64,000 nt of DNA from Flavobacterium sp. KS-LB2 (GTDB taxonomy: Bacteria; Bacteroidota; Bacteroidia; Flavobacteriales; Flavobacteriaceae): contig NZ_CP145904.1 of assembly GCF_036895565.1 (NCBI RefSeq), forward strand, positions 310,001 through 374,000. Reading direction: 5' to 3'. Position 1 is the first letter of the stretch; every line of letters begins with the position of its first letter. Shown here one piece after another: positions 10,158-46,924 of the stretch. The translations under genes and the position numbers were made by a program. Below the pieces are notes generated by a model that made no database searches, was not told where the DNA came from, and worked only from the letters and a program-made list of their open reading frames with translations.

Positions 10158-10265
10158 TTTTTAGCCCCGATGGAAGGGAATATCCTTTCTAGTCCTGAAC
10201 TTGTTTCAGGATCCTGAAACAAGTTCAGGACTAGAAAGATTGGAATGACAGCGGGATTAGCTTCC
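10158..10265 (+). repeat. dispersed hairpin element, copy 1, between nrdB and nrdA
   Basis: Left end TTTTTAGCCCCG is shared with the copy at 33580-33662, and right end GCGGGATTAGCTTCC resembles the right ends of the other copies. The core, 10185-10238, is a 54-bp perfect palindrome centred on GGATCC at 10209-10214, built from TCCTGAACTTGTTTCAGGA-type sequence. The segment 10147-10173 can also fold (CATCGGG with CCCGATG). It sits inside the nrdBA transcription unit and reads in the same direction. Confidence 0.8.
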
Positions 10266-10331
10266 CAAAAAAATGAAACAAATACTCAAAAACGGGAAAG
10301 GGATTTTCTGTTTTTTAAAACAATTAAGCGT

Positions 10332-12761
10332 ATGTATGTAGTTAAAAGAGATGGGCACAAAGAGCCGGTAATGTTCGACAAAATCACGGATAGAATTAAA
10401 AAACTATGCTATGGTTTGAATGATTTGGTTGATGCTGTGAAAGTGGCAATGCGCGTAATTGAAGGACTTTATGATGGTGTTTCGACATCTGAACTAGATA
10501 ATCTTGCTGCCGAAACTGCCGCGTCAATGACTATTGCACATCCTGATTATGCCCAATTAGCAGCCCGTATTGCAATCTCTAATTTACATTCAAACACAAA
10601 AAAATCATTCTCAGAAACGATGAATGATATGTTCAATTATGTGAATCCAAGAAACGGTCAATATGCACCGTTAGTTTCTGATGAAGTGCATAAAGTAATT
10701 ATGGATAATGCGGAGTTTTTAGATTCCCACATTATATACAATAGAGATTTCAATTACGATTATTTTGGTTTTAAAACCTTAGAAAGATCGTATTTGCTAA
10801 AAATAAATGGTAAAATCGTGGAACGTCCGCAACATATGTTGATGCGTGTGTCTGTTGGGATTCACTTAGACGATTTGAAATCGGTAATAGAAACCTACGA
10901 CTTAATGTCGAAAAAATTCTTTACGCATGCAACACCAACATTGTTTAATGCTGGAACTCCAAAACCTCAAATGTCTTCTTGTTTCCTTTTGGCCATGCAA
11001 GACGATAGTATTGATGGGATTTATGACACGTTGAAACAAACGGCTAAAATCTCACAATCAGCAGGTGGAATAGGACTTTCTATTCACAATGTAAGAGCAA
11101 CTGGTTCTTATATTCGTGGTACTAACGGAACGTCTAACGGAATTGTTCCTATGTTGCGTGTTTTCAATGATACAGCACGTTATGTAGATCAAGGAGGAGG
11201 AAAACGTAAAGGAAGTTTTGCCATTTATATCGAAACTTGGCATGCGGATATCTTTGAATTCCTTGACTTGAAAAAGAATACCGGAAAAGAAGAAATGCGT
11301 GCAAGAGATTTGTTTTTTGCGATGTGGACTTCGGATTTGTTTATGAAAAGAGTACAAGAAGACAGTTATTGGACCTTAATGTGTCCTAATGAATGTCCTG
11401 GATTGTATGACGTTTATGGAGACGATTTCGAAAAAATGTACACGGATTACGAAAAAGCTGGAAAAGGTAGAAAAACTATCAAAGCACATGAATTGTGGGA
11501 GAAAATTCTAGAATCGCAAATCGAAACTGGAACGCCTTACATGTTGTACAAAGATGCAGCCAATAGAAAATCAAACCAAAAAAATCTAGGTACGATTCGT
11601 TCTTCGAATTTGTGTACGGAGATTATGGAATACACATCTACAGATGAAATTGCAGTTTGTAACTTGGCTTCACTTTCGTTGCCAATGTTTGTGGAAAACA
11701 AAAAATTCAATCATGACTTGTTATTCAGCGTTACCAAACGTGTAACTAGAAACTTGAATAAAGTAATTGATAGAAATTATTATCCAGTAAAAGAGGCCGA
11801 AAACTCCAATATGCGTCACAGACCAGTTGGTCTTGGAGTACAAGGACTAGCGGATGCTTTCATTATGCTTCGTATGCCATTTACGAGTGACGAAGCGAAG
11901 AAACTGAATCAGGAAATTTTTGAGACCCTGTACTTTGCAGCAGTAACCGCATCGATGGAAATGGCCAAAGAAGAAGGGCCGTATTCTACTTTTGAAGGTT
12001 CGCCAATGTCACAAGGAGAATTTCAGTACAATTTGTGGGGATTGAAAGATGAGGAATTATCAGGTCGTTGGGATTGGGCTTCTTTGCGAAAAGAAGTGAT
12101 GGAACACGGGGTGAGAAACTCCTTATTAGTAGCGCCGATGCCAACCGCTTCGACTTCTCAAATATTGGGTAACAATGAAGCATTCGAACCATATACTTCT
12201 AATATTTACACCAGAAGAGTACTTTCGGGTGAGTTTATTGTGGTAAACAAACACTTGTTACACGATTTAGTAGAACGCGGTTTGTGGAACGAAACATTGA
12301 AACAAGAATTGATGCGAAATAACGGTTCTGTTCAAGCACTTGATATTCCGCAGGACTTGAAAGAATTGTACAAAACTGTATGGGAAATGTCTATGAAAGA
12401 TATTATTGATATGTCACGTCAGCGTGGGTATTTTGTCGATCAATCACAATCATTGAATTTATTCATGCAAAATGCCAATTATTCTAAATTGACATCGATG
12501 CATTTCTACGCTTGGCAATCCGGATTGAAAACAGGAATGTATTATTTGAGAACAAAAGCTGCGGTGGATGCGATTAAATTTACATTGAATAATGATAAAA
12601 AAGCAGAACCAATTGAAATTAAAGAGCAACCCGTTTTGGAGCGATTAGAGTCAATTGCCGTTTTAAATGAACCTGTTGAAATGACTGCTGAAGAATACAG
12701 AGCAATGATTGAACTGGCTAAAAATGCTGGTCCAGACGAATGCGAAATGTGTGGGTCTTAA
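10332..12761 (+). CDS. nrdA: class Ia ribonucleotide reductase, large (catalytic) subunit
   Basis: 809 aa from the ATG at 10332. An in-frame ATG at 10245 would add 29 residues, but those are encoded inside the repeat element and the family begins at [17 protein letters not shown], so the later start is chosen. An ATP-cone spans the first 90 residues. The catalytic barrel shows [27 protein letters not shown] (active-site Cys and Glu) and [13 protein letters not shown]. The C-terminal tail CEMC is the redox pair re-reduced by thioredoxin or glutaredoxin. It partners NrdB. A terminator follows at 12780. Confidence 0.97.
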
Positions 12762-12779
12762 TGACTCAGGAAAATAATA

Positions 12780-12804
12780 AAGGCTTCTTAATTGAAGCCT
12801 TTTA
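12780..12804 (+). terminator. rho-independent terminator after nrdA
   Basis: AAGGCTTC pairs with GAAGCCTT across a 6-base loop and is followed by TTTT. Confidence 0.85.
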
Positions 12805-13105
12805 TAAGAACATATTAACCTTTAATTTATTTTGCTGAGGTAAAGAAAAAAGTAATGCGCATAAAAAAAGGGACATCTATGACATCCCTATTTTGGAGAA
12901 CTTAAATAATTTTGGATCCGACCCCTAAAATTTTAAGTTGTTTAAGAAGGAAAAGGTTACCTCGCCTACTTTTTATATACCTCAAAAGTATATAATTCGA
13001 ATCTTCTTTCCAAAATTATTTTTTAAGATAATATCAATGTTGATATTATTAATCTACAACTCTTATGTCATAAGAGATTAAAGAGTTGTTAACAAAACAA
13101 ATAAA
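12805..13105. other. intergenic region rich in short hairpins, no recognised gene
   Basis: Several perfect inverted repeats occur in close succession: TATATAC/GTATATA (12974-12980 and 12988-12994), ATAATATCAA/TTGATATTAT (13028-13037 and 13040-13049), CTCTTATG/CATAAGAG (13060-13076) nested within CAACTCTT/AAGAGTTG (13057-13064 and 13081-13088). No long coding frame is convincing. It may be the leader of the 41-aa gene or an unannotated small RNA. Confidence 0.4.
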
Positions 13106-13231
13106 ATGGAAAATCCATCAAACAATGATTTTTACTACATTTTTAGAAAATGTATCACGACCAGAAATGGAAGAAGAATTTGTAAAACTGACGGAAGTTG
13201 TTTTAAAATTCGAATTAAGAAAAGCATTTAA
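13106..13231 (+). CDS. 41-aa basic conserved-looking small protein
   Basis: An ATG at 13106 opens a 41-codon frame whose product contains FRKCITTRNGRRICKTDG, a compact basic segment with three cysteines overall (residues 16, 26 and 32). From memory, short Bacteroidetes proteins with an FRxxITxRNGxx core exist, but I cannot confirm the family here. A good terminator (13242-13270) begins 10 bp after the stop, which supports an independent short gene. A longer overlapping frame (13086-13325) runs through the terminator and the following repeat, so it is judged spurious. Function unknown. Confidence 0.55.
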   Translation: MENPSNNDFYYIFRKCITTRNGRRICKTDGSCFKIRIKKSI

Positions 13232-13241
13232 ATTTGAAAAG

Positions 13242-13270
13242 CAGCTGTCAATTGATAGCTGTTTTTTTTT
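13242..13270 (+). terminator. terminator after the 41-aa gene
   Basis: CAGCTGTCAATTGATAGCTG is nearly self-complementary (one G-T pair on each side) and is followed by nine T residues. Confidence 0.75.
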
Positions 13271-13354
13271 GGTAGCTATTCCCCGCTCTCGGTACTTCAA
13301 ACGAATTTCACTGAACTCTAATTAAAATAAATGCTTAGTTAAGCAGTAAGGGCT
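13271..13354 (-). repeat. dispersed hairpin element, degenerate copy 6
   Basis: Reading leftward, it opens with AGCCCTTACTGC and ends with AGCGGGGAATAGCTACC, comparable to AGCCCCGGTAGCAGC and AACGGGAAATAGCTCC of the better copy at 33580-33662. The interior is AT-rich and its core hairpin is not clear, so the copy is probably decayed. Confidence 0.4.
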
Positions 13355-13374
13355 AGAACATCGAGAGTTAATAG

Positions 13375-13404
13375 TTGAAATTAGGTTGTAATTCACTATA
13401 TTTG
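13375..13404 (+). promoter_or_regulatory. promoter of the RDD-protein gene
   Basis: TTG at 13375-13377, a 19-bp spacer and TATATTTG at 13397-13404 match the Bacteroidetes -33/-7 promoter very well. The start codon is 50 bp downstream. Confidence 0.75.
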
Positions 13405-13454
13405 AGTTGTTTAATATGGTTTGTGTCCTTTTGTAATAACTAAAAATATTAAAA

Positions 13455-13931
13455 ATGGAAAGTAAAGAATTTGCCGTCACAGAAGATTTATTAGCTTCCA
13501 AAAGTCAACGTTTTCTGAATTTTAGTATTGATTTAGGGATTGTTTATATAATACAAATTACAATTGGAACAACCATCGATATTATTGGAGATTTGACGCG
13601 AAGTTATGCTGCATCGAATTGGTTGAAATCATTGACTTTGATTGAAAATTTTTTCTTTGGACTTGTAATCTTATTTTTTTACTACGGATTATCAGAACTG
13701 TATTTCTCCAGAACTTTTGGAAAATATTTTACGAAAACAATAGTTGTCAAGCATAATGGTTCAAAGCCCAACATGAAAAGCATTATTATCCGAACTGTAT
13801 CGAGATTAATTCCTTTGGAGCCTTTTTCTTTTTTAACTGCTGAGCGAGGATGGCATGATACATTATCCGTTACGTATGTGGTTAAAAAGCATGAGTTTGT
13901 TGCAAAAAAGAAATTATTTTCTGAAGAATAA
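13455..13931 (+). CDS. RDD-family membrane protein
   Basis: 158 aa. The N-terminal ASKSQRFLNFSIDLGIVYII carries the Arg and Asp residues that give the RDD family its name, and the second half has the conserved FGKYFTKTIVVK and IIRTVSRLIPLEPFSF segments. There are about two to three transmembrane helices. RDD proteins have unclear roles; some act as ion antiporters. The gene has its own promoter and is followed by a weak hairpin with a T-run (13953-13982) before dgt, which overlaps only non-coding sequence if dgt starts at 14033. Confidence 0.85.
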   Translation: MESKEFAVTEDLLASKSQRFLNFSIDLGIVYIIQITIGTTIDIIGDLTRSYAASNWLKSLTLIENFFFGLVILFFYYGLSELYFSRTFGKYFTKTIVVKHNGSKPNMKSIIIRTVSRLIPLEPFSFLTAERGWHDTLSVTYVVKKHEFVAKKKLFSEE

Positions 13932-14032
13932 AGAAGTAGAAAAGATAAAAATTGCAGTCATTTTAGGCTGCTTTTTTGTTTTTAAACACATCCTTTTCTT
14001 TATATTCGCTCCTTCTAAATACCAACAATAAT

Positions 14033-15382
14033 ATGATGAACTGGGAACAACTTTTATCACTAAAACGACAAGGCGACAAAGGCAAAAGATTGCGTGTAGA
14101 ACAAGATGATACCCGCTTGGGTTTTGAAGTCGATTACGACCGTATCATTTTCTCAGCCGCTTTTAGAAGTTTGCAGGATAAAACCCAAGTTATTCCGTTA
14201 TCAAAAACTGATTTTGTGCATACTCGACTGACACACAGTTTAGAAGTTTCGGTTGTTGGACGTTCTTTAGGACGATTGGTTGGTAAAAAAATCATCGAAA
14301 AATACCCGCATCTGAAAGAAGTTCACGGCTATCACATGAATGATTTTGGAGCTATCGTAGCTGCAGCATCTTTGGCGCATGATATTGGGAATCCGCCTTT
14401 TGGACATTCCGGTGAAAAAGCGATTGGCGAATATTTTTCCATTGGAAAAGGACAGCAATACAAAGACCAGCTTACGGCAAAAGAATGGCAGGATTTAATT
14501 GATTTTGAAGGAAATGCAAATGGTTTTTCGGTATTGACAGCTAGTCGTCCCGGAATTGAAGGCGGACTTCGAATTTCGTATGCGACTCTTGGTGCTTTTA
14601 TGAAATATCCAAAAGAAAGTTTGCCGAAAAAACCAACAAAGGACATTGCTGACAAAAAATACGGTTTCTTTCAAACTGAAAAAGCTTTTTTTCAAGAAGT
14701 GGCTCTTGATATGGGTTTGATTCCAAATAAATCCGGAGATAATATAGGTTTCGAAAGACATCCTTTGGCATACTTAGTCGAAGCTGCGGATGATATTTGT
14801 TACACCATTATTGATTTTGAAGACGGAATCAATTTAGGATTGGTTTCGGAGGATTTTGCGTTGGAATATTTGATAAAATTGGTAAAAGACAGCATTGACA
14901 CTTCGAAATATAAGACCTTAGAAACCAAAGAAGATCGCATCAGTTATTTGCGTGCTTTAGCAATTGGGAGTTTAATCAATGATGCGGTAAAGGTTTTTAT
15001 CGAAAATGAAGCATTAATTTTGGCTGGGAAATTCCCGTATGCTATAATGGATAAAAGTAAGTACAAAGCACAGATGGATGACATTATCAAAATCAGTGTT
15101 AAAAACATTTACCAAAGCCGTGAAGTTATTGAGAAAGAAATTGTTGGGTATCAAATTATACAAACGTTGTTGGATAAATTCATAACAGCTTTTAATAATA
15201 AATTCAACGGAAATGCGTCTAATTACGATTCCTTAATTATGAAAATGTTGCCAGAAAAGCATCATTTGGAAAAAGAGAATCTATATGGAAGACTGCTCCA
15301 TATTTGTCATTATGTGTCGCTTTTGACCGATGGGAATGCACTTGAATTATTTGAAACTATTAATGGTAGAAAGAAGAATTAA
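14033..15382 (+). CDS. dgt: deoxyguanosinetriphosphate triphosphohydrolase (dGTPase)
   Basis: 449 aa from ATG 14033 (a second ATG follows at once at 14036). An upstream in-frame ATG at 13976 lies in a T-rich stretch resembling the terminator of the preceding gene and is not used here. HD-domain residues are visible: His68 in RLTHSLEV, and His116-Asp117 in AHDIGNPPFGH. FRSLQDKTQV (44-53) is the dGTPase family signature. The enzyme hydrolyses dNTPs, chiefly dGTP, to the nucleoside and tripolyphosphate, and so influences the dNTP pool made by NrdAB upstream. Confidence 0.93.
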   Translation: MMNWEQLLSLKRQGDKGKRLRVEQDDTRLGFEVDYDRIIFSAAFRSLQDKTQVIPLSKTDFVHTRLTHSLEVSVVGRSLGRLVGKKIIEKYPHLKEVHGYHMNDFGAIVAAASLAHDIGNPPFGHSGEKAIGEYFSIGKGQQYKDQLTAKEWQDLIDFEGNANGFSVLTASRPGIEGGLRISYATLGAFMKYPKESLPKKPTKDIADKKYGFFQTEKAFFQEVALDMGLIPNKSGDNIGFERHPLAYLVEAADDICYTIIDFEDGINLGLVSEDFALEYLIKLVKDSIDTSKYKTLETKEDRISYLRALAIGSLINDAVKVFIENEALILAGKFPYAIMDKSKYKAQMDDIIKISVKNIYQSREVIEKEIVGYQIIQTLLDKFITAFNNKFNGNASNYDSLIMKMLPEKHHLEKENLYGRLLHICHYVSLLTDGNALELFETINGRKKN

Positions 15383-15385
15383 TTC

Positions 15386-16420
15386 TTAAAAAACATATTC
15401 AATTCCTACACCAATAGCTTGTCGAACTTGTGTTTTTGGGCCCTCGGTTACTTGTATTCCTGCGATCTCTCTTTTTGATTTGATATCGTCGTCATAGATA
15501 ACATGTGCTCCAATGTTTGCTTTTACATATTGATTTACTACAAGTTCTACTAGAAAATCACAATCTATATCGATGTTTCCAAAACGATTTACATAGTCAG
15601 AATATAAGCTTAGGCGATTTTCTAGATTAATATTTTTGAAGATTTCTTTTTTGTATTTATTAGTTATTAAAAATCCAAGTTCCATTTTTGATTGTTCCCC
15701 TTCGGTGAGTAGATTTCCATCCAAGTCATAGGTTGCTTTTGCAACACCAAAAGCACCTTGATTCGCTAATCTTTGGTCTAAAACCAAAGTAGTTTTAAAT
15801 GTAAATGGGGAAATATAAAATGTTCTTTTCTTATCTTTATCAATATTCTCAGCACCTACTCCCATAAAAATATAGGCTGGCGCAAAAGGTTTTGAGATTG
15901 CTTTTTCTGTATTTGGATAGGCATAACCATTCGTGAATTGCGTGTTGAAATTAAATTTTGCTGAGTGATACCAATTAGAAAGAGTGTCTTTTCTATAGCC
16001 AAATGTGGAGTTTAATTGTAAGGCGTCCTCTGTTTTTCGTATATCAATTCCGTCTTGTTTGTTTAAACCATATTTAACAATTAGTTCGTTTGACCAGTTG
16101 TAATTACTCCTCGCATAAACTCTATGGAATTTCCCTTTAAACAATCCTGAAATCGAACTAGTTCCTCCTGCACTCCAGTTGACAAAAGCAACTTCAGAGA
16201 TGTCGAATCCTAAACTGTTTTTTTTTGTCCAATGCGATAATGGAAGATAATGTGTTAGAGTTTGTATTTTTAATGCTACTTTCAACGGCCTATTTGCAGT
16301 TGATAGGGTTTTTATTGGACTAAGAGTATCAGATAACGGTGTAATTCTTACTTCTTGAGCAAAACAATTAAAAGAGATAGAAAGGCTAAGTATGAGAAAA
16401 GTGTAGGTTAATAGCTTCAT
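15386..16420 (-). CDS. DUF3078 outer-membrane-type protein
   Basis: 344 aa with a signal peptide (about residues 1-21, ending SFNCFAQ). The body has the DUF3078 features EVAFVNWSAGGTSSISG and, further on, a repeated alternation of aromatic and polar residues expected of a beta-barrel, ending in an aromatic residue (EYVF) as outer-membrane barrels do. Function unknown; the family is restricted to Bacteroidetes. It lies 38 bp downstream of dxs, in the same direction, and is convergent with dgt. Confidence 0.85.
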   Translation of the reverse strand: MKLLTYTFLILSLSISFNCFAQEVRITPLSDTLSPIKTLSTANRPLKVALKIQTLTHYLPLSHWTKKNSLGFDISEVAFVNWSAGGTSSISGLFKGKFHRVYARSNYNWSNELIVKYGLNKQDGIDIRKTEDALQLNSTFGYRKDTLSNWYHSAKFNFNTQFTNGYAYPNTEKAISKPFAPAYIFMGVGAENIDKDKKRTFYISPFTFKTTLVLDQRLANQGAFGVAKATYDLDGNLLTEGEQSKMELGFLITNKYKKEIFKNINLENRLSLYSDYVNRFGNIDIDCDFLVELVVNQYVKANIGAHVIYDDDIKSKREIAGIQVTEGPKTQVRQAIGVGIEYVF

Positions 16421-16458
16421 TTTGGACTAGTTGTGTTTAAGGTTGCAAAATAATTATT

Positions 16459-18240: not shown

Positions 18241-18244
18241 AAAG

Positions 18245-18722: not shown

Positions 18723-18743
18723 TATTCTTCTCCTAAATACACT

Positions 18744-18815
18744 AGCCCAGATAGTAGCGAAAATCCTTTTCTTTTTTTTAAAGAAAAGATTGTAGAGGAT
18801 AGCTGGATTAGCTCC
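18744..18815 (+). repeat. dispersed hairpin element, copy 2
   Basis: It begins AGCCCAGATAGTAGCG and ends GATAGCTGGATTAGCTCC; between them ATCCTTTTCTT and AAGAAAAGAT form the self-complementary core. It fills most of the gap between the convergent genes tadA and RNase G. Confidence 0.7.
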
Positions 18816-18842
18816 TTAAAATTCTAAAAAAGTGCAAAAAAA

Positions 18843-31820: not shown

Positions 31821-31915
31821 AACTGTCTTTTGTATTTAAAGTCTTAGCTAAAGTATTAAATTAAATAACTGCTGCAGTTGTAATACCCCATTTTTTTACA
31901 CTATTCTACTTATTT

Positions 31916-32029
31916 GCATGAGGGATAGCAGCGGCATTCTTTTATGGAGCGCAGCGCAATAAAAGATACAGCGAATAGCCCGACCCGTAGTTGCGAGGAG
32001 GAACGACGCTGCAAACTGAAGAGTCATGC
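31916..32029 (+). repeat. dispersed hairpin element, copy 3 (longer variant)
   Basis: GCATGA at 31916 and TCATGC ending 32029 close it. GGATAGCAGCGGCATTCTTTT and AAAAGATACAGCGAATAGCC are the arms also seen in copy 4, around a TTTTATGGAGCGC/GCGCAATAAAA core hairpin (31940-31964). A second variable part follows. It is GC-richer than its surroundings. Confidence 0.7.
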
Positions 32030-32043
32030 CCAAAAACAAAAAA

Positions 32044-33579: not shown

Positions 33580-33662
33580 GGAGCTATTTCCCGTTATTCG
33601 CTATATCTTTTTACACGCAAAAAAGCGTGAAAAAAGGATGCCGCTGCTACCGGGGCTAAAAA
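33580..33662 (-). repeat. dispersed hairpin element, copy 4 (best-preserved)
   Basis: Reading leftward: TTTTTAGCCCCGGTAGCAGC, then GGCATCCTTTTTT, a CACGC-T6-GCGTG core hairpin, TAAAAAGATATAGCGAATAA and CGGGAAATAGCTCC. The two outer arms can pair imperfectly, so the whole element may fold as one long hairpin. It lies between the divergent ahcY and phosphopantetheinyl transferase genes and ends 14 bp before the latter's ATG. Confidence 0.8.
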
Positions 33663-38261: not shown

Positions 38262-38264
38262 CGC

Positions 38265-38349
38265 TGTCTCAAAGGGGTGCTCTAAATAACGAGCTGAGAT
38301 TATACCCAAAGAACCTGGACAAGTAATGTTGTCAAGGGAAAAAATGACA
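38265..38349 (+). promoter_or_regulatory. thiamine pyrophosphate (TPP) riboswitch
   Basis: The conserved THI-box segments are plain: AGGGGTGCTC (38273 on), GAGCTGAGATTATACCC (38291 on), GAACCTGGAC, then GTCAAGGGAA. The P3 arm GCTC/GAGC closes over TAAATAAC, and the P4-P5 arm GGACAA/TTGTC is formed. The ligand-binding core is complete. P1 (TGTC/GACA) is short and competes with a downstream TGTCA at 38377-38381 through hairpin 38345-38381. It controls the TonB-dependent receptor downstream. Confidence 0.93.
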
Positions 38350-38449
38350 AAAAAATAGGGTGCACACTACTTTATTTGTCATAGGAAACAATCATTTTTT
38401 AATTTAACAAAAAGAATAATTCCCCCTTTTATTCGTAAACTTTTTACGG

Positions 38450-40600
38450 ATGAATTTTTTATTTTACAAAAGCGGCCAAGCGCCAAGGTCTAAGCGCCTA
38501 GCAAGTGTATTTCGAATATTTTCTATATTCTTGACGCTTCACTTTTCACTTTTCACTTTTTCACAAGTCAAAGACACTACACAAGTTAATGCGCTTGATG
38601 AAGTATTAGTTTCAGCGGTTCGTGTAACCACAAAAACACCAGTCAGCTTCAGCAATTTGGGCAAAAAAGAAATTAAATTCCGAAATTTAGGACAAGATAT
38701 TCCCATTTTGATGAATTACTTGCCTTCAATTGTTACCACTTCTGATGCTGGTAACGGAGTAGGATATACCGGAATCCGGGTTCGTGGTAGCGATGCCACT
38801 CGAGTGAATGTAACCATTAACGGAATTCCGTACAATGACTCTGAAAGTCATGGAACCTATTGGGTTAATATGCCGGATTTTGCATCTTCTGTAGAGAGTT
38901 TACAGTTGCAGCGCGGTGTAGGAACTTCTACCAATGGTGCGGGTGCTTTTGGCGCAAGCCTGAACATGCTTACGGATAATTTTGCTAAAAAAAGTACAGG
39001 TGAAATCTCGAACTCTTTTGGAAGTTTCAATACTAGAAAACACACGGTAAAATTCAGTACGGGTTTGATGAACGACCATTTTGAAATTGCGGGACGTTTG
39101 TCTGCTTTAAATTCTGATGGCTATGTAGATCGTGGTGCTTCTGATTTGAAATCGTATTTTCTGCAAGGAACGTATGTTGGTAAAACTACGTTGATAAAAG
39201 CATTGGTTTTTGGTGGAACTGAAAAAACGTACCAATCATGGAACGGAATAGACGGCGAGACATTAAAAAATGACCGAACCTTTAATTCAGCAGGGGCTTT
39301 TACAGATGAGCAAGGCAACGCTCGTTTTTATGATAATGAAACCGATAATTACCAGCAAGATCACTCTCAGTTGCATTGGAACGAAAAACTATCAGAAAAC
39401 TGGAGTACTAACTTTGCAATACACTACACCAAAGGAAAAGGATATTACGAAAACTACAAAGAAGATGCTGATTTAGCAGATTATGGATTGCAACCAGTTG
39501 GCACAGTAACAACAACTGATTTGATTCGTCAAAAATGGTTAGATAATGATTTCTACGGAACCACATTTTCTGCTAATTATAAAGCCGAAAGACTAGATGT
39601 AATTTTTGGTGGTGGATGGAACAAGTATGAAGGAGACCATTTCGGGAAAGTGATTTGGGCGCGATTTGCATCTCAAAGCGAACTTGGCGATAAATATTAT
39701 GACGATTATGCCGTTAAAACGGATGGAAATATTTTTGCCAAAGCCAATTACCAAATTACAGAGAAATTAAGTTTATTTGGAGATTTACAATACCGTACGG
39801 TTGATTATAAAGCTAATGGTGTTCAAGCAAACCTGGTAGAGGATACGTTTAATTTTTTTAATCCAAAGACAGGATTGACTTTCGATATCAATGGGAATAA
39901 TGCTTTGTACTTTTCGTATGCAAGAGCAAACAGAGAACCAAACAGAACTGATTATGAAGGCGGAAACGTAAAACCAGAAAAACTAAATGACTTTGAATTG
40001 GGTTGGAGATTCAACTCGGCCAAAGTGCAGTTGAATACCAATGTGTATTACATGGTCTATAAAGACCAATTGATATTGACAGGAAATCTAGATGATGTTG
40101 GTGCTCCAATACGTTCCAATAGCGAAAAAAGTTACCGTTTAGGACTAGAAGTTGATGCAACAATTGCATTGACAAATCAGTTGATTATTCGTCCAAATTT
40201 TACTTTGAGTGCGAATAAAAATTCGGATTTAGCGGTAGAAGGTCAGAATTATGGAACTACTGATATTGCGTATTCACCATCTATTATTGCAGGTAATATT
40301 TTGGTTTATACACCAGTGGAGAATCTTCATATTTCATGGTTGCAAAAATTCGTCGGGGAACAATACATGAATAACATCGAATTGCCTGCTGCTAGGTTGG
40401 CAGATTATTTTGTGAATGATTTGAATGTAGCTTATACTTTTAAACCAAAAACAATTTTCAAAGAGATTGTGTTAACAGGTTTAGTGAATAATTTTTTAGA
40501 TAAGAAGTATGTTTCAAACGGTTACATGTATGATGTATATCCGTATTATTATCCACAAGCGGGAATTAATTTCCTTGCCGGTTTGACGCTGAAGTTTTAG
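38450..40600 (+). CDS. TonB-dependent outer-membrane receptor under TPP control (probable thiamine receptor)
   Basis: 716 aa. The signal peptide (about 17-38) is encoded by tandem CTTTTCA-type repeats and ends FTFSQ. A plug domain follows (VLVSAVRVTTKTPVSFSNL, then IRVRGSDATRVNVTINGIPYNDSE, VESLQLQRGVGTSTNGAGAFGA), then a 22-strand barrel to a terminal Phe (LAGLTLKF). There is no N-terminal carboxypeptidase-like domain, so it is not a SusC. The riboswitch implies thiamine or a precursor as substrate, as for OMR1-type receptors. ATG 38450 lies inside a hairpin (38431-38451) that could govern translation. Confidence 0.9.
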   Translation: MNFLFYKSGQAPRSKRLASVFRIFSIFLTLHFSLFTFSQVKDTTQVNALDEVLVSAVRVTTKTPVSFSNLGKKEIKFRNLGQDIPILMNYLPSIVTTSDAGNGVGYTGIRVRGSDATRVNVTINGIPYNDSESHGTYWVNMPDFASSVESLQLQRGVGTSTNGAGAFGASLNMLTDNFAKKSTGEISNSFGSFNTRKHTVKFSTGLMNDHFEIAGRLSALNSDGYVDRGASDLKSYFLQGTYVGKTTLIKALVFGGTEKTYQSWNGIDGETLKNDRTFNSAGAFTDEQGNARFYDNETDNYQQDHSQLHWNEKLSENWSTNFAIHYTKGKGYYENYKEDADLADYGLQPVGTVTTTDLIRQKWLDNDFYGTTFSANYKAERLDVIFGGGWNKYEGDHFGKVIWARFASQSELGDKYYDDYAVKTDGNIFAKANYQITEKLSLFGDLQYRTVDYKANGVQANLVEDTFNFFNPKTGLTFDINGNNALYFSYARANREPNRTDYEGGNVKPEKLNDFELGWRFNSAKVQLNTNVYYMVYKDQLILTGNLDDVGAPIRSNSEKSYRLGLEVDATIALTNQLIIRPNFTLSANKNSDLAVEGQNYGTTDIAYSPSIIAGNILVYTPVENLHISWLQKFVGEQYMNNIELPAARLADYFVNDLNVAYTFKPKTIFKEIVLTGLVNNFLDKKYVSNGYMYDVYPYYYPQAGINFLAGLTLKF

Positions 40601-40620
40601 AATATATTTAGTTAAAAAGT

Positions 40621-40654
40621 AAAAAATCCTGATAGTTCGCTGTCAGGATTTTTT
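40621..40654. terminator. bidirectional terminator between receptor and Rieske-like genes
   Basis: AAAAAATCCTGA and TCAGGATTTTTT are exact complements around a short loop. Confidence 0.88.
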
Positions 40655-40657
40655 TGT

Positions 40658-41071
40658 TTAATTATAAACTCGAAGCATATTTCCATTTACCTGAACTCGG
40701 TATTGTTTCAAAGGGTATTGTAAAGACCCTTGTCCAGTAAATAAGCTGTATTCTTTGTTGTCACACCCGCAAACGGCATTTATTCCATCAATAGTCATAG
40801 TAGAGCAAGAACTTATAGCTTGATTGGGACATGCTGCATCAAAAGCATTGTAACCGCTGCCGGTATTAAAAACAATAACTCCTCGTGCACCAGTTCCAGA
40901 AATGTAAACAGCATTACTTGCAAATTTAAGATTTGAATAGGTAGCCAAATTTAGATTGAGATCTATAGAAAAAGAGTAGTTAGGAATAAATGGATTACTG
41001 TTGTTTAGACCGGAATCACTACATGAAAAAAAGAAAGGAATTATAATGGAAAGTAGCAGGTATTTTTTCAT
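40658..41071 (-). CDS. Rieske-like fold lipoprotein lacking the iron-sulfur histidines
   Basis: 137 aa. A lipoprotein signal ends at Cys17 (FFFSC). The C-terminal half follows the Rieske plan: GVIVFNTGSGYNAFDAACPNQ, then VCGCDNKEYSLFTGQ and PLKQYRVQVNGNMLRVY. But the two cluster boxes are altered: C81-x-N83 instead of CxH and C101-x-x-D104 instead of CxxH, with extra cysteines at 89 and 103. A normal 2Fe-2S cluster is unlikely; disulfides are possible. It is a small exported protein of unknown role, convergent with the receptor. Confidence 0.7.
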   Translation of the reverse strand: MKKYLLLSIIIPFFFSCSDSGLNNSNPFIPNYSFSIDLNLNLATYSNLKFASNAVYISGTGARGVIVFNTGSGYNAFDAACPNQAISSCSTMTIDGINAVCGCDNKEYSLFTGQGSLQYPLKQYRVQVNGNMLRVYN

Positions 41072-41170
41072 TTTAAAATAGTGTCAAAGTATTAGTGAAA
41101 CAAATTTAATTTATTTAACTTTGAATTATATATGATTAACATATATTTATAGACGAAAAAAAAATAATAG

Positions 41171-41178
41171 TATCTTTG
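41171..41178 (+). promoter_or_regulatory. -7 box of greA
   Basis: TATCTTTG fits TAnnTTTG. Expected transcription start is about 41184-41186, exactly where the leader hairpin begins. Confidence 0.65.
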
Positions 41179-41185
41179 TGGAAAG

Positions 41186-41211
41186 AAATCCCGTCCTGAT
41201 GGGATTTTTTC
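41186..41211 (+). promoter_or_regulatory. 5'-end hairpin with T-run in the greA leader
   Basis: AAATCCC and GGGATTT pair over an 8-base loop and are followed by TTTC. It resembles a small terminator but begins at the predicted +1, so it may instead protect the 5' end or cause early termination. Confidence 0.65.
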
Positions 41212-41233
41212 TATTTATATAAATGAGGAAGTT

Positions 41234-41710
41234 ATGAGTACAGTATCGTATTACACCGCAGAAGGGTTGAAAAAGTTAAGAGAAGAGTTAGATTATTTAA
41301 AAAGCGTAATGCGTCCAAAAGCATCAGCAGATATAGCCGAAGCAAGAGATAAAGGAGATCTTTCTGAGAATGCTGAATACGATGCTGCTAAAGAAGCACA
41401 AGGAATGCTGGAAATGCGTATTGCCAAACTGGAAGAAGTGCATTCAAACGCCAGATTAATTGATGAAACCCATCTAGATGTGTCTAAAGTTTTGGTGTTG
41501 TCTAATGTAAAAATCAAAAACCAAACCAACGGAATGGAAATGAAATACACATTGGTTGCAGAAAGTGAAGCCGACCTTAAAACTGGGAAAATCTCTGTGA
41601 CCTCACCTATTGGGAAAGGTTTGCTAGGAAAATCAGTAGGAGAAGTGGCAGAAATCACAGTGCCTAATGGAGTGTTGAAATTTGAAATTTTAGAAATTTC
41701 ACGCGATTAA
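41234..41710 (+). CDS. greA: transcription elongation factor GreA
   Basis: 158 aa. The N-terminal coiled coil (GLKKLREELDYLKS, EARDKGDLSENAEYDAAKEAQ, with the acidic tip residues that enter the polymerase secondary channel) and the C-terminal FKBP-like domain (ISVTSPIGKGLLGKSVGEVAEI) are both present. It stimulates RNA cleavage in backtracked polymerase. A GAGGAAG stretch ends 3 bp before the ATG, unusual in this lineage; it belongs to a 4-codon mini-frame (ATG at 41223) ending across the greA start. HIT gene follows 44 bp later. Confidence 0.96.
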   Translation: MSTVSYYTAEGLKKLREELDYLKSVMRPKASADIAEARDKGDLSENAEYDAAKEAQGMLEMRIAKLEEVHSNARLIDETHLDVSKVLVLSNVKIKNQTNGMEMKYTLVAESEADLKTGKISVTSPIGKGLLGKSVGEVAEITVPNGVLKFEILEISRD

Positions 41711-41754
41711 AGAATCAAAGATTTAATCGATTCAAACAATTAACCAATTTTACA

Positions 41755-42144
41755 ATGTCAAGTATTTTTACTAAAATAATAAACGGCGAAATCCCGTGTT
41801 ATAAAGTTGCAGAAGACGAAAATTTCTTAGCTTTTTTGGATGTAAATCCAAATGCAAAAGGACACACACTTTGTATTCCAAAACAAGAAATCAATAAGAT
41901 TTTTGAGATGGATGATGATTTGTATATCGGGCTAATGCAGTTTTCTAAAAAAATAGCGGTCGCTCTTGAAAAAACGGTTCCATGCAAAAGAATCGGAATG
42001 GCAGTGGTGGGATTAGAAGTTCCTCATACACATGTTCATTTGATTCCATTGAATGAAATGGATGAAATGCGTTTTCAAAATAAAGTAACGTTGTCCAAAG
42101 ACGAATTTGAAGCTTTGGCAGAACGTATTAAATCCAATTTATAA
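41755..42144 (+). CDS. HIT-family (histidine triad) protein
   Basis: 129 aa. The triad HTHVHLIPL (His91, 93 and 95) is complete, and the N-terminal SIFTKIINGEIPCYKV and GHTLCIPK segments are typical of the Hint/protein kinase C-interacting branch. Such proteins hydrolyse adenosine 5'-monophosphoramidates and related nucleotides. It lies between greA and a strong terminator, so it is likely co-transcribed with greA. Confidence 0.92.
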   Translation: MSSIFTKIINGEIPCYKVAEDENFLAFLDVNPNAKGHTLCIPKQEINKIFEMDDDLYIGLMQFSKKIAVALEKTVPCKRIGMAVVGLEVPHTHVHLIPLNEMDEMRFQNKVTLSKDEFEALAERIKSNL

Positions 42145-42181
42145 TTTCTACATAAAATAAATTGGTATAGTTTTAGTTTAG

Positions 42182-42222
42182 AAAGGGAATAGGTGTAAGC
42201 CTATTCCCTTTTAATTTTTTTA
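42182..42222 (+). terminator. terminator after the HIT gene
   Basis: AAAGGGAATAGG pairs with CCTATTCCCTTT over a 6-base loop, followed by T-rich sequence. Confidence 0.9.
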
Positions 42223-42238
42223 GTCTAGATTGCATACT

Positions 42239-43411
42239 ATGAAAAACATTTATATCGTACTTTTTTTCTTTTTCACCATGCTGAGTTTTGGACAGGGTAA
42301 TCCTGGATATGTTCTGATTGATGCTAAAATGGCTGCTATTCCAGTTAATTCAACAACTTCAATTGAAGCGATTGCCAAATATATTAATGCAAATTTCAAA
42401 ACAGAATCAGATAAAATCAGGGCAGTTTTCTACTGGACAGCTTCCAATATCAGCTATGACATTCCTGGAATGTATGACGTAAATTTCAATGAAACAGTTC
42501 CAGAAAAAATTGCAAAAACGTTAAAAACTAAAAAAGGAGTGTGTATTCATTATGCTGTTGTTTTTAATGCCCTTTCCCAAAAAATAGGATTAGAATCTTA
42601 CATAATCGAAGGATACACCAAGCAAAATGGGAGAATAAGTAACTTAGCGCACGCTTGGACCGCTGTAAAAATTGACAAAAAGTGGTTTGTATTTGATCCA
42701 ACTTGGGGTGCCGGTTATGTGAATAATGGGAAATTTTCTAAAAAAATAAACAACAGTTATTTTAAGGTGGCTCCAGCTGCTATAATCGCTTCGCATATTC
42801 CGTTTGATTATTTATGGCAATTTTTGAATTATCCTATTACCAATAGTGAGTTTTACGAAGGTCAAATCCAAATCAACAAAGCAAAAAAATATTTCGATTT
42901 TGAAAAAGAAATCGCCAGTTACAACGCCATGTCAGAGGAAGATCAATTGTTTGTTTCTGCAGAAAGAATAGCTAAAAACGGTTTGAAAAATGCTATGATT
43001 CTCGAACGCTATGAAGGGAAAAAGCAACAATTGACTTATCTGCGACAAAATACCAATATTGAAAAATTGAATGCTATTGTGAATGAAATGAATCAGGCAG
43101 TAGTCTTGCTAAATGACTTTATTTATTACAGAAACAATAAATTCAAGCCTACTTTTTCAGATGATGAGATTAGTAGTATGATTGAAACACCAAGAGCAAA
43201 ACTAGTCAAATGTCAGAACGATATTTACAGTGTTGGTCCAGTTGGTGATAAAAATGCATCTAATGTAGCGTCGATTAAAGCATCAATTGGAGCAGCTTTG
43301 GCACAAGCCGAAGAACACTCATTGTTTGTGAAAAATTATTTGAGTAAGTCTAAATTAGTCCGAAAAACGATGTTTTCTAAAGTGTCTTGGTTTGGCGTTC
43401 CTTTAAACTAA
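42239..43411 (+). CDS. secreted transglutaminase-like protein
   Basis: 390 aa from ATG 42239 (a TTG three codons upstream is less likely). Signal peptide ends MLSFGQ. The transglutaminase-like catalytic triad is visible: Cys in KKGVCIHYA, His in LAHAWTAVKI and Asp in FVFDPTWG. Further C-terminal helices from about 220 are unassigned. It probably is a periplasmic protease or cross-linking-type enzyme. The start follows the terminator at 42182 by 17 bp. Its last 9 bp overlap the end of the convergent histidine kinase gene. Confidence 0.87.
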   Translation: MKNIYIVLFFFFTMLSFGQGNPGYVLIDAKMAAIPVNSTTSIEAIAKYINANFKTESDKIRAVFYWTASNISYDIPGMYDVNFNETVPEKIAKTLKTKKGVCIHYAVVFNALSQKIGLESYIIEGYTKQNGRISNLAHAWTAVKIDKKWFVFDPTWGAGYVNNGKFSKKINNSYFKVAPAAIIASHIPFDYLWQFLNYPITNSEFYEGQIQINKAKKYFDFEKEIASYNAMSEEDQLFVSAERIAKNGLKNAMILERYEGKKQQLTYLRQNTNIEKLNAIVNEMNQAVVLLNDFIYYRNNKFKPTFSDDEISSMIETPRAKLVKCQNDIYSVGPVGDKNASNVASIKASIGAALAQAEEHSLFVKNYLSKSKLVRKTMFSKVSWFGVPLN

Positions 43412-44557
43412 AGTACTTTTTTTAAAACTGACTTGCATTGTTGTTCCTTTTCCAATTTCGGAATGCAGTACTTTAATCGTTCCTTTGTGGTATTCTTCCA
43501 CGATTCTTTTGGTCAATGAAAGACCTAATCCCCATCCGCGTTTTTTAGTAGTGAAACCAGGTTCAAAAATATTTTTGAATTGATTTTTTTGAATTCCGCT
43601 TCCCGTATCGGAAACGTTAATTTTTACAGCATCTCCTTCTTGCTCAATTTCTAGGGCTAATTTTCCTTTTCCTTTCATGGCATCGATAGCATTTTTCACT
43701 AAGTTTTCTATGGTCCAGCTGTGAAGTGTGGGATTGAGGGATACCATAATAGGAGATTTTGGAGCTTTAAACGAAAATTCAATTTGTTTAGAAAATCGGG
43801 ATTGCAAATAGTCGTAAGACTGAAGTGTTTCTGCTACGATGTCTTTATTTTCTAATTTGGGTTCCGATCCTATTTTAGAAAAACGATCGGTTATGGTTTG
43901 CAAACGCTCAATGTCTTTTTCAATTTCAAATGTGGTGCTTTCATCCACATTTTCAGATTTCAAGAGTTCAACCCAGCCAATCAATGAAGAAAGTGGCGTT
44001 CCTATTTGGTGTGCGGTTTCTTTGGCCATACCAGCCCAAAGTTTGTTTTGCGTAGCCATTTTGGTGCTTCTGTAAAAATTATAAACGAGCGCCCCAAAAA
44101 GCACAATGATCAGCACTAATGCAACGGGATAATATTTCAGTTTATTCAGTAATGCGGAATTACCATAATATAAATTTTGAAATTTTCCTGGAACGTATTC
44201 AATGACTATTGGTTCATTTTCGTTTTTCAATTTGGATAAAAAACTCTTGGCTTTGTCGTCATTTTTTACAATAGCATCGTCAATGTTTACGGTGTTTATG
44301 ATGCGGTTATTCTCAGTAACTATAATAGGAATTGAGGTGTTGTTACTGAAAATCTGAAGTGGAAGTTCCACATCAGTATTTTCACCGGCATTGTTAAGTG
44401 TTTTTTGAGCTTTTGCCCAAAGGTTCATTTTCAATCGTTCTTCATTTTTGAAGATTTGAAAAAAAGTATAGGTGTTCCAGAGAATTAATGAAATGATTAA
44501 AAACGATGCAAAAATAATAACCCAACGAGTTGTATTTCTTCTATCAGAAAACTGCAT
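43403..44557 (-). CDS. sensor histidine kinase, orphan
   Basis: 384 aa. Two transmembrane helices (about 12-34 and 143-162) enclose a roughly 110-residue periplasmic sensor. The H-box lies at AKETAHQIGTPLSSL with His183. The ATPase domain shows NLVKNAIDAM (N-box), DTGSGIQ (G1), FEPGFTTKKRGWGLGLSLTKRIV (F and G2). No HAMP domain is evident. No response regulator gene is adjacent, so its partner is unknown. Confidence 0.92.
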   Translation of the reverse strand: MQFSDRRNTTRWVIIFASFLIISLILWNTYTFFQIFKNEERLKMNLWAKAQKTLNNAGENTDVELPLQIFSNNTSIPIIVTENNRIINTVNIDDAIVKNDDKAKSFLSKLKNENEPIVIEYVPGKFQNLYYGNSALLNKLKYYPVALVLIIVLFGALVYNFYRSTKMATQNKLWAGMAKETAHQIGTPLSSLIGWVELLKSENVDESTTFEIEKDIERLQTITDRFSKIGSEPKLENKDIVAETLQSYDYLQSRFSKQIEFSFKAPKSPIMVSLNPTLHSWTIENLVKNAIDAMKGKGKLALEIEQEGDAVKINVSDTGSGIQKNQFKNIFEPGFTTKKRGWGLGLSLTKRIVEEYHKGTIKVLHSEIGKGTTMQVSFKKSTLV

Positions 44558-44697
44558 AAATATGATTTAGAGGTATAAATATAATGAAATAAAAGCTTTC
44601 GTATTTTAGTTTTAGATAAAGATTTTTTTTGAGAAAATCAAATCTTTATTTTATTCTAATTTCAAGTTACTGCTTTTTAAACTTAATTCATTTGTAT

Positions 44698-44705
44698 ACT
44701 TTTGT
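44698..44705 (+). promoter_or_regulatory. -7 box upstream of the flavin reductase gene
   Basis: TACTTTTG fits the TAnnTTTG consensus and lies 26 bp before the ATG. Confidence 0.5.
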
Positions 44706-44731
44706 ATCTTTCAGCACTAAATTAAAAGCGT

Positions 44732-45613
44732 ATGATTACAATTGATCCCAAAAGTATCGAAACTGCAAAACTACAAGGGTATTTGCAAAGTTCTGTTGGG
44801 CCTAGACCCATAGCTTTTGCTAGTACAATGGACGCTAAGGGGAATCCTAATGTGTCGCCTTTTAGTTTCTTTAATGTGTTCAGTGCTAATCCGCCTGTTT
44901 TGATATTTTCGCCAGCAAGACGCGTTCGTGACAATTCAATAAAGCATACATTAATCAATGCCGAAGCGACTCGGGAAGTAGTGATTAATGTGGTCAATTA
45001 TGATATGGTACAGCAAATTTCTCTGGCTAGTACAGAATATGCTGATGGCGTAGATGAGTTTATAAAATCTGGCTTGACGCCAATTGCTTCAGAGGTTGTA
45101 AAACCGTTTAGAGTAAAGGAATCACCAGTACAATTTGAATGCAAAGTCACTCAGATTATTCCACTGGGAACAGAAGGAGGAGCAGGAAATTTAGTGCTTT
45201 GCGAAGTTTTGAGAATTCATATTGACGAATCTGTTTTAGACGAAAACGGAGCGATTGATCAACATAAAATTGACTTAGTTTCTAGATTAGGAGGCAATTG
45301 GTATTCCAGGTCCAATCAAGGACTTTTTGAAGTTCCAAAACCCCTATCGACGTTAGGAATTGGGGTAGATGCGATTCCAAATTTTATAAAAGAAAGTCCT
45401 ATTTTTGATGGAAACGATTTAGGTATTTTGGGGAATGTAGAAGCCTTGCCTACAATGGAAGAAGTTAGTATATTTGTACAGCAAAATTTCGCAGTGAAAG
45501 GAGTTTTAAGTTCCGATGATGCCGAAAAAGTGTATTTAGAAGCGAAAAAATATCTAAATGCTAATGATGTTTCCTCCGCATGGAAAGTCCTTTTGGCAGA
45601 GAAAAAAAAATAG
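44732..45613 (+). CDS. flavin reductase / flavoredoxin-like FMN-binding protein
   Basis: 293 aa. The N-terminal FMN-binding split-barrel (residues 1-200) shows SVGPRPIAFASTMDAKG, NVSPFSFFNVFSANPP and REVVINVV, characteristic of the flavin-reductase-like/flavoredoxin family. The C-terminal ~90 residues (ESPIFDGNDLGILGNVE) are a helical addition found in Bacteroidetes members. It binds FMN and reduces or carries electrons; partner unknown. DUF3127 gene follows 24 bp later. Confidence 0.88.
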   Translation: MITIDPKSIETAKLQGYLQSSVGPRPIAFASTMDAKGNPNVSPFSFFNVFSANPPVLIFSPARRVRDNSIKHTLINAEATREVVINVVNYDMVQQISLASTEYADGVDEFIKSGLTPIASEVVKPFRVKESPVQFECKVTQIIPLGTEGGAGNLVLCEVLRIHIDESVLDENGAIDQHKIDLVSRLGGNWYSRSNQGLFEVPKPLSTLGIGVDAIPNFIKESPIFDGNDLGILGNVEALPTMEEVSIFVQQNFAVKGVLSSDDAEKVYLEAKKYLNANDVSSAWKVLLAEKKK

Positions 45614-45637
45614 AGCAAAACAATTAAAATAGAGAAG

Positions 45638-46018
45638 ATGGAAGTTACAGGAAAAATTAAAATGATTGATCAAACTAAAGAAGTTGGATCTGGAGGTTTC
45701 AAGAAAAGAGATGTTGTTGTGACAACAGATGAGCAATATCCTCAACATATTCTCGTTCAGTTTGTTCAGGACAAATGTGACTTATTGAACGGTTTTCAAG
45801 TAGGAGAGCCTGTAAAAATTGATATTAATTTAAGAGGTAGAGAATGGACAAATCCTCAAGGGGAAACAGTTTATTTCAATACGATCCAAGGATGGAGAAT
45901 AGGAAAGTTACAAGTTGAAACTCCTTCTGCTGCACAAATGCCTCCAATGCCTGCTGCTGAAGCTTTTGCACCAGCAACAAACTTAAACGAAGAAGAGGCA
46001 GACGATTTGCCTTTCTAA
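45638..46018 (+). CDS. DUF3127 OB-fold-like protein with SSB-type C-terminal tip
   Basis: 126 aa. The DUF3127 domain (about 1-90: EVTGKIKMIDQTKEVGSGGFKKRDVVV, QYPQHILVQFVQDKC, VKIDINLRGREW) has the strand pattern of an OB fold. A Pro/Ala linker leads to EEEADDLPF at the very end, closely like the terminal DDxPF of single-stranded DNA-binding proteins, and like NDLPF of the SSB in this window. It may bind nucleic acid and recruit SSB partners (inference). A hairpin terminator at 46044 follows. Confidence 0.88.
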   Translation: MEVTGKIKMIDQTKEVGSGGFKKRDVVVTTDEQYPQHILVQFVQDKCDLLNGFQVGEPVKIDINLRGREWTNPQGETVYFNTIQGWRIGKLQVETPSAAQMPPMPAAEAFAPATNLNEEEADDLPF

Positions 46019-46043
46019 AATAAAATTCTAAATTTTTTATATT

Positions 46044-46092
46044 CCAAATTCCAAATTGAGCTTGTCTTTATATTGGAATTTGGTTTTTTTTT
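46044..46092 (+). terminator. terminator after the DUF3127 gene
   Basis: CCAAATTCCAA (46044-46054) and TTGGAATTTGG (46073-46083) are exact complements, followed by nine T. Confidence 0.8.
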
Positions 46093-46140
46093 AAATTGAT
46101 TTTTAAAATTTCCATTACCATTGATTTTTGAAATTGAAAA

Positions 46141-46782
46141 ATGTATTATTTATCTTCAGCCTTATTTTTTCCTCCTATTGACCAAGCCAATCGCGATGGA
46201 ATTTTAGCCATAGGAGGCGATTTGTCCCCAGAACGATTACAACTAGCATACAAAAGCGGTATTTTTCCTTGGTTTGAAGATGGAGAACCCATTATATGGT
46301 GGTCACCAAATCCAAGAATGGTTTTATTTCTGGATGAATTAATCGTTTCCAAAAGCATGCGAAACATTCTGAATAGAGATAGTTTCAAAGTAACATTCAA
46401 TCAGAATTTCAGGGAAGTAATTTCAAATTGTCAAAAGATAAAACGTGACGGTCAAAACGGCACTTGGATTACTAATGAAATGATTGATGCCTATTGTAAC
46501 CTTCACGAATTAGGCATAGCAAAATCAGTTGAGGTTTGGCAAAATGACACCTTAGTAGGTGGCTTGTATGGCATCGATTTAGGTCATGTTTTTTGTGGAG
46601 AAAGTATGTTTTCTAAAGTATCAAATGCTTCTAAAGTGGCTTTCATTGCCTTGGTAAACCAATTAAAAAAAGAAGAGTACAAACTGCTGGATTGTCAGGT
46701 TTATAATCCGCATTTGGAAAGTTTAGGTTGTCGTGAAATAAAGCGTGATGATTTTATGAAAATTCTTCAAGGAAATAATTAG
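46141..46782 (+). CDS. aat: leucyl/phenylalanyl-tRNA-protein transferase
   Basis: 213 aa. FPPIDQANRDGILAIGGDLSPERL, AYKSGIFPWFEDGEPIIWWSPNPR and GLYGIDLGHVFCGESMFS are the defining motifs of Aat (GNAT-like fold). It attaches Leu or Phe from tRNA to N-terminal Lys/Arg, marking proteins for ClpAP degradation. It is a single gene. Its stop (TAG at 46780-46782) directly touches a dispersed repeat. Confidence 0.95.
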   Translation: MYYLSSALFFPPIDQANRDGILAIGGDLSPERLQLAYKSGIFPWFEDGEPIIWWSPNPRMVLFLDELIVSKSMRNILNRDSFKVTFNQNFREVISNCQKIKRDGQNGTWITNEMIDAYCNLHELGIAKSVEVWQNDTLVGGLYGIDLGHVFCGESMFSKVSNASKVAFIALVNQLKKEEYKLLDCQVYNPHLESLGCREIKRDDFMKILQGNN

Positions 46783-46924
46783 AGCCTAATCCGGCTGTAC
46801 GTTTCAAGTCCTCCTTCAAAACCTTTTTTTTCTAAAGTCATAAAAGGAGCTTCCTGCCGGTCGCTCTTTTCTGCCTAGAAAAAAATAGTCTTTTCAGTCC
46901 GGGCTTTCCACTGCCATCCGGGGC
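46783..46924 (-). repeat. dispersed hairpin element, copy 5 (long variant)
   Basis: Reading leftward it opens GCCCCGGATGGCAGTGG and ends CAGCCGGATTAGGCTC; inside, GGCAGGAAGCTCC repeats the usual right end. It completely fills the 145-bp gap between the convergent genes aat and tag. I believe this exact type of sequence (with CCCGGACTGAAAAG) is frequent in Flavobacterium genomes, from memory. Confidence 0.7.

Follow-up and report, generated by a model that had tools for sequence, protein, structure and literature searches.

Dispersed Flavo-1 elements in a Flavobacterium genome: one stem in three architectures

Flavo-1 (Rfam family RF01705) entered the literature in 2010 as a putative structured RNA whose function was not known (Weinberg et al. 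2010, PMC2864571), and a 2022 review ranks it with the small-RNA families of highest abundance (PMC9029176). In a published transcriptome of F. psychrophilum, Flavo-1 matches are reported to lie in sense or antisense of transcribed regions indistinctly, and many fall outside these regions (PMC9723704). Here we present an analysis of six related intergenic elements in a window of 64,000 nucleotides (nt) of Flavobacterium sp. KS-LB2, positions 310001-374000 of a 3.41-Mb single-contig genome (G000, the host genome below). All six belong to Flavo-1, a repeat scattered between genes in which the fold of a single strand defines the family, and they have the same conserved ends and stem as the Rfam family but differ from its model, which is a single hairpin of 76 nt. 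One stem is common to three architectures, namely a short hairpin, a three-way junction and a long hairpin of 146 nt, and the outer part of the three-way junction and the core of the long hairpin are additions beyond the Rfam model. No published description of either larger form was found in the literature searched, which consisted mostly of papers available without subscription.

Identity and abundance of the window copies

Four of the six window copies, numbered here by position, exceed the RF01705 gathering threshold of 42 bits in an Rfam scan (Table 1), with E-values down to 2e-13, and none of 14 control genomes gave a match. A fifth falls below the threshold and is recognised by R1, a long-form model built from fourteen host copies, which matches 38 of 60 related genomes. 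The remaining sequence, copy 2, is most likely a real but decayed copy, because the same spacer downstream of nrdA holds an intact element in the relative G007. Chance similarity among palindromes, or an assembly artefact, is ruled out for practical purposes by these E-values, the empty controls and the matches in related genomes. The initial annotation, made from the letters of the window, had recognised a family of related intergenic elements and had linked it to unnamed sequences of Flavobacterium genomes; the family is real, and the name is Flavo-1. Few or no matches elsewhere in the genome, the outcome it had named as fatal to the idea, is the opposite of what was found. The host genome holds over 100 copies: at least 83 RF01705 matches at E<=1e-3, 73 of them above the cut-off (150 of 1015 candidates having been scored), and 21 long-form copies of 143-149 nt, one of which is among the 83 and 20 of which are not.

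Table 1. Flavo-1 copies in the window, with scores against RF01705 and R1
Feature	Position	Strand	Context	Model matches and parts
Copy 1, short form	10159..10265	+	between nrdB and nrdA	RF01705 51.9 bits over 10159-10262; R1 62.1 bits
Copy 2, decayed short form	13271..13354	-	downstream of nrdA	remnants of both ends; no RF01705 match at E<=1
Copy 3, short form	18740..18816	+	spacer between tadA and a convergent rng-like gene	RF01705 70.4 bits over 18740-18813
Copy 4, three-way-junction form	31914..32031	+		RF01705 50.3 bits, covering only 31911-31989
Parts of copy 4	31914..32031			outer helix 31916-31921 with 32024-32029; main arm to ~31980; second arm ~31981-32023
Copy 5, short form	33580..33661	-	upstream of ahcY	RF01705 68.4 bits over 33583-33661
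Copy 6, long form, 148 nt	46781..46928	-	between convergent aat and tag-like genes	RF01705 35.1 bits over 46784-46928, sub-threshold; R1 135.4 bits, full length (copy is in the R1 training set)

The gene names used here (nrdA, nrdB, tadA, rng, ahcY, aat, tag, pbpC) were assigned by reading translations. By its AHCY protein, compared across 80 loci, the host is closest among named organisms to Flavobacterium turcicum and Flavobacterium sp. AED, both at 97%. Within the genus, the host included, 46 of 49 genomes have RF01705 matches and three (G018, G020 and G033) have none (per-genome counts listed to 51). Copies number 83, 59, 86 and 74 in four of the same-genus genomes, again with the host, and the range within the genus is 0 to 86. 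Across the phylum, RF01705 matches 28 of 198 genomes and 17 of 102 genera, and R1, which also scores short copies and so includes them in its matches, 18 of 198 genomes and 7 of 102 genera. Full-length R1 matches in the phylum list fall almost entirely in the host's own genus, with about three weak ones in a genome of another genus of the same family (G142). Since RF01705 reaches more genera than R1, the short form is the more widespread of the two, the long form being apparently peculiar to a lineage.

The fold and its three architectures

In the alignment of the 83 host copies found with the RF01705 model, the left end AGCCC.GAT.G.AR.G..ATCC pairs with the right end GAT..AG.G.A.AGC.GGGA, and the outer stem contains regularly spaced 3x3 internal loops of the GNA/GNA type, with G.A mismatches. 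Inspection of these copies, from which stem covariation in the short form was read, shows A, G or T after GAT changing in step with T, C or A before AGC, and likewise AG[C/T]G with [G/A]CG. When 76 long copies are paired symmetrically, G.A and A.G together make up 535 of 1094 mismatched cells. A G.A mismatch exists on one strand only, its complement being C.T; therefore, the fold of the Rfam strand is the conserved one. This strand is also the more stable of the two as folded RNA in 37 of 44 cases.

A script that assigned types to the 83 copies returned 50 with AGCC ends, 19 three-way junctions and 14 of neither type, some of these 14 being evident three-way-junction copies that the pattern missed. 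The short form consists of the ends and a free hairpin core (copies 1, 3 and 5). In the three-way junction the left end reads GCGTGAGGG and the right end CCCGACCC[arm]..CACGCCCAAA; the ends that form the outer helix are complementary in 19 of 19 script-recognised copies, with seven different stems, and such copies extend up to ~50 nt past the 3' end of the Rfam model. The limits drawn for copy 4 in the initial annotation, 31916-32029, coincide with this outer helix (GCATGA/TCATGC). Six loci (L098, L101, L106, L107, L361 and L368) have an extension to the left (..GATTACTTCAC..GAGTTCAGTGAAC) that may be another arm.

The long form was discovered because 17 of 68 host matches to a left-end pattern were absent from the Rfam list. 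These 17 comprise 12 long copies, one short copy (L298) and four matches inside other open reading frames (ORFs). Ordinary copies thus account for 13, and the scan, which covered the host genome and left ends other than those of the three-way junction, showed none that encloses a gene. The long form has a near-constant length of ~146 nt (143-149 in 75 of 76 copies, 157 in the other) and a conserved unpaired tip, RAGCGAC..GGAAGCTY, and about 70 nt of its conserved, paired core are an insert in the RF01705 model. We dropped the notion that it is invisible to Rfam, since 6 of 15 long loci reach the RF01705 threshold through their ends in a focused scan; what the model lacks is the core. A viral contig (L390) bears the tip pattern without a long-form match, and this was taken as chance. 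Two shorter long-form matches, G000:C1:786935-787067 (133 nt) and G010:C1:2879721-2879840 (120 nt), may have arisen by partial deletion and stand midway between the long form and the short one.

The separate cores described in the initial annotation are all present in the sequence. That of copy 1 is a perfect palindrome of 54 bp (10185-10238, 100% self-match on the opposite strand). Half of this palindrome occurs exactly only there, and at two mismatches or fewer it has 8 host matches against 2 for a reversed control, so the host carries no abundant nested repeat, such as a repetitive extragenic palindrome (REP), of that kind. The view that every copy has a core of its own was incomplete, since copy 6 is a long form whose core is conserved in both sequence and length. 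The proposal that the ends are constrained by sequence and the cores by folding holds for the short form.

Evidence for the short form comes chiefly from the site upstream of ahcY. Same-genus loci were taken from the best 30 of the 55 matching genomes, and one of them, L139, stops short of the site; 16 of 30 carry an element there in the same orientation, as do 4 of 11 named or metagenome contigs, some of the named ones possibly from the same organisms as unnamed ones (L133 and L200 are identical); the Rfam scan agrees. In these 20 elements the ends are kept, whereas the core palindromes are of about twelve kinds that range from CACGC/GCGTG to GTTCTG/CAGAAC and to composite arms of some length. 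Relatives also show replaced cores in the tadA-rng spacer (G007 and G029) and in the nrdB-nrdA spacer (G007, G029 and G045). The comparison covered six sites in six relatives, with many cells lacking usable anchors (none usable at the fourth site, two at the sixth). Copy 6 occupies the entire 145-nt spacer between two convergent stop codons. Relatives without the element, of the kind that the initial annotation had suggested looking for, occur here: in G007 and G045, the two relatives with a readable short spacer, aat and tag are separated by 58 and 40 nt without an element. The junction holds other DNA in G030 and G087, and no anchors were found in G010 and G029.

Covariation, another check it had proposed (for the cores), is extensive in the long form. 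In the unfitted alignment of 14 host long copies, 30 of 42 pairs have two-sided changes. In 76 long copies, aligned by fitting to the structure and with related copies counted many times, 41 of 42 pairs have them; 93.5% of 3180 cells are paired, against 43-53% with the structure slid, 785 cells are two-sided against 225 in shuffles, and none of 500 shuffles attained any of the five measures. Between copies at shared sites, 2261 paired cells are unchanged, 469 changed on both sides, 124 changed on one side yet still paired, and 244 broken in either copy; these comparisons are not independent, one cluster of ten copies giving 1890 of the 3098.

Genomic context and dispersal

The copies had been described as lying between genes and interrupting none, and no interrupted gene could be shown among the 83 host copies. 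Overlap with an ORF was reported for eight, always at the 5' end of the ORF, and in all eight an alternative start past the element leaves at least 147 codons. Long copies overlap an ORF in 6 of 76 cases; over both sets, 12 of 14 overlaps are at a 5' end with a later start, and in the remaining two (L375 and L321) the ORFs, of 110 and 91 codons, are possibly not real genes. These overlap counts, and the counts of context that follow, rest on a crude ORF caller.

In tandem gene pairs, the 83 copies are antisense in 34 cases and sense in 19, and 19 of the 83 lie in divergent spacers. Unclustered long copies gave 40 antisense to 7 sense, a ratio inflated by copies at shared sites; clustering into 44 sites left 18 antisense, 5 sense (p = 0.011), 12 divergent, 8 convergent and 1 undetermined. 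Neither a constant class of gene nor a sense orientation, the traits of a cis-regulatory RNA, was found in the 83 copies or the 44 long sites. The neighbours of 12 long loci look like ordinary household genes, judged from translations without a family search. Where the right-hand gene faces a long copy, the distance from the end of the copy to that gene's stop codon is at most 10 nt in 28 of 49 copies (11 of 26 by site), so there is often little spacer besides the element; either the element could be kept while the remaining spacer erodes, or sense copies could be lost because a stable strand in mRNA is harmful.

Relative to replication, the 83 copies have no clear bias at any of the origins tested. 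Against an origin at ~0 and a terminus at ~1.55 Mb, positions read from sparse and noisy samples of GC skew, 16 of the 21 host long copies are oriented against the leading strand, a bias not separable from the antisense one because genes tend to be co-oriented with replication. A T-run, taken as five consecutive T within ~15 nt after the element, follows 7 of the 83 copies on the Rfam strand and 5 on the other, so that Flavo-1 is generally no intrinsic terminator. Terminator-like sites are absent from inside the six window copies, and some adjoin them. Elsewhere in the window, 38263-38356 (+) resembles a thiamine pyrophosphate (TPP) riboswitch (38.3 bits, under the Rfam cut-off of 54.3) and immediately precedes a TonB-dependent-receptor-like gene of 716 aa at 38450; it may be a thiamine-transport riboswitch that has diverged.

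In five comparisons, each between similar copies of a single genome, the two copies have a common stretch that starts with (C)CTAGCCC or TTGCGTGAGG and ends with AGCTTC, GCTCC or CACGCCCAAA. Flanks are apparently unrelated in four of the five, and the fifth pair (L369/L371) is also alike over ~20 nt to the left; the two long-form pairs among the five are 93% and 91% identical. That copies so alike stand in unrelated surroundings suggests spread in exact blocks, with few recent events. Visual inspection of the ends of the five pairs revealed no target duplication, and no filled and empty site with alignable flanks could be paired.

In G030 (L163), two direct Flavo-1 copies (6610-6692 and 15117-15197) flank pbpC-like and alpha-2-macroglobulin-like genes at the tadA-rng junction, which in G000, G007 and G029 has a single copy without those genes. 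Recombination between copies may thus add or remove genes, and the host copy at this junction could be a recombinant of two copies of the G030 type. In G010 (L149) the junction contains ~2.8 kb of other DNA without a match to the long-form model, and the place looks variable.

Competing explanations and known systems

Any account of Flavo-1 must accommodate what is observed: the fold covaries, cores are replaced where the site stays the same, units resemble one another although their flanks do not, species differ in which sites are occupied, and many sites are retained for long. We favour over a dedicated RNA, tentatively and at somewhat less than even confidence, a non-autonomous mobile palindrome that is read as a folded single strand. 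A trans-acting enzyme would read that strand when it is exposed in replication or transcription and would copy it into intergenic DNA without duplicating the target; conservation of the ends and mismatches, with a core that need only fold, would follow because the enzyme reads the folded strand. Recombination between copies, or template switching inside the hairpin, might exchange the cores, and the surviving copies would mostly be those with the stable strand outside the mRNA. Such a palindrome fits most of the data, and a functional RNA is a real possibility, particularly where the long form is concerned. The initial annotation, in offering a mobilised element like a REPIN or a miniature inverted-repeat transposable element, or else a structured RNA, had named the right pair of candidates; a REPIN in the strict sense is not supported, for want of a link to Y1 or RAYT genes and of partners with at least 90% identity.

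Several results weigh against mobility. None of the 83 host copies has a partner of at least 90% identity (22 have one at 80-90%, and the median nearest identity is 76%); for this reason, and because one of the five pairs shares part of its left flank, we moved weight from the mobile to the RNA explanation. Ten of the 21 host long copies stand at sites common with G010, many sites thus being old. No transposase or recombinase for Flavo-1 was found. The RAYT and IS200 transposases belong to the Y1 family PF01797, which has two weak matches in the host and none in seven genomes at least 88% complete and with at least 29 copies each (G004, G011, G029, G030, G035, G038 and G043); over 80 genomes Y1 does not track the number of Flavo-1 copies. 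Neither plasmids (two queries) nor phages (one query) gave a Flavo-1 match. Changes that keep pairs intact at shared sites look like selection for function, and with symmetric counting the balance of G.T and A.C does not tell RNA folding from DNA folding. A family of functional RNAs, in which the Rfam strand would be transcribed and its fold, above all that of the long form, would bind a protein and act in trans or as an antisense or 3'-end RNA, with the short forms as simplified versions, is possible though on balance doubtful. In its favour are the scarcity of recent movement in the host, the long-form covariation, near-constant length and conserved tip, the two-sided changes at shared sites, and an excess of G.U over A.C (119 to 40) in the structure-fitted alignment. 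Under scoring neutral to mismatches, however, G.T exceeds A.C by 146 to 97 in all 76 copies, 83 to 55 with one copy per site and 37 to 25 in isolated cells, and in short cores by 11 to 7 (from a script that dropped 15 of the 83 copies, their ends not being placed, and mis-split a few more). Single-stranded DNA too tolerates G.T better than A.C, and the excess therefore does not decide between RNA and DNA. The absence of a consistent gene or orientation also argues against an RNA, as do copy numbers of 0 to 86 within one genus and the indifference to transcript strand reported for F. psychrophilum. REP sequences in 3' untranslated regions of E. coli offer a model for a further explanation, which we consider improbable: an mRNA-end or insulator element whose hairpin blocks exonucleases or read-through between neighbours and is kept for that reason. 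The intergenic position, the closeness of facing long copies to stop codons and a copy 6 that is the whole spacer would suit it. T-runs are nevertheless rare, the window copies hold no terminator-like site, and divergent spacers, where no mRNA ends, contain 19 of 83 copies and 12 of 44 long sites; orientation should also matter little to such an element, whereas in tandem pairs 18 long sites are antisense and 5 sense.

Since 2010 no function has been attached to Flavo-1 in the catalogues, and with the two fuller forms the limits of the family can be drawn better. The conserved tip of the long form is sufficient to fish for a binding protein, and the gain and loss of exact blocks is a prediction for strain collections. 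For annotation, copies are typed as small RNA genes, yet their layout fits a dispersed repeat at least equally well.

Among known systems, the attC sites of integrons have conserved ends and an interchangeable middle constrained by its fold, and are recognised as a folded single strand. Flavo-1 copies differ in being scattered singly, not in cassette arrays. Going further, Flavo-1 might be a structure-addressed mobile site with its information wholly in the folded DNA strand, a mismatch-marked stem, an interchangeable head and an enzyme class of its own, attC-like in logic, scattered like REP and present in several branches of the phylum; this bolder form of the mobile explanation we regard as unlikely. 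REP, BIME and REPIN elements are likewise short, intergenic, imperfect palindromes of high copy number and strand asymmetry, from which Flavo-1 differs in its independence of Y1, the free core of its short form and the divergence of host copies. ERIC, BOX and Correia (NEMIS) elements are intergenic palindromic repeats of ~100-150 bp that fold when transcribed, some with modular middles. They belong to other phyla, and Flavo-1 is set apart from them by its periodic G.A loops and its three architectures.

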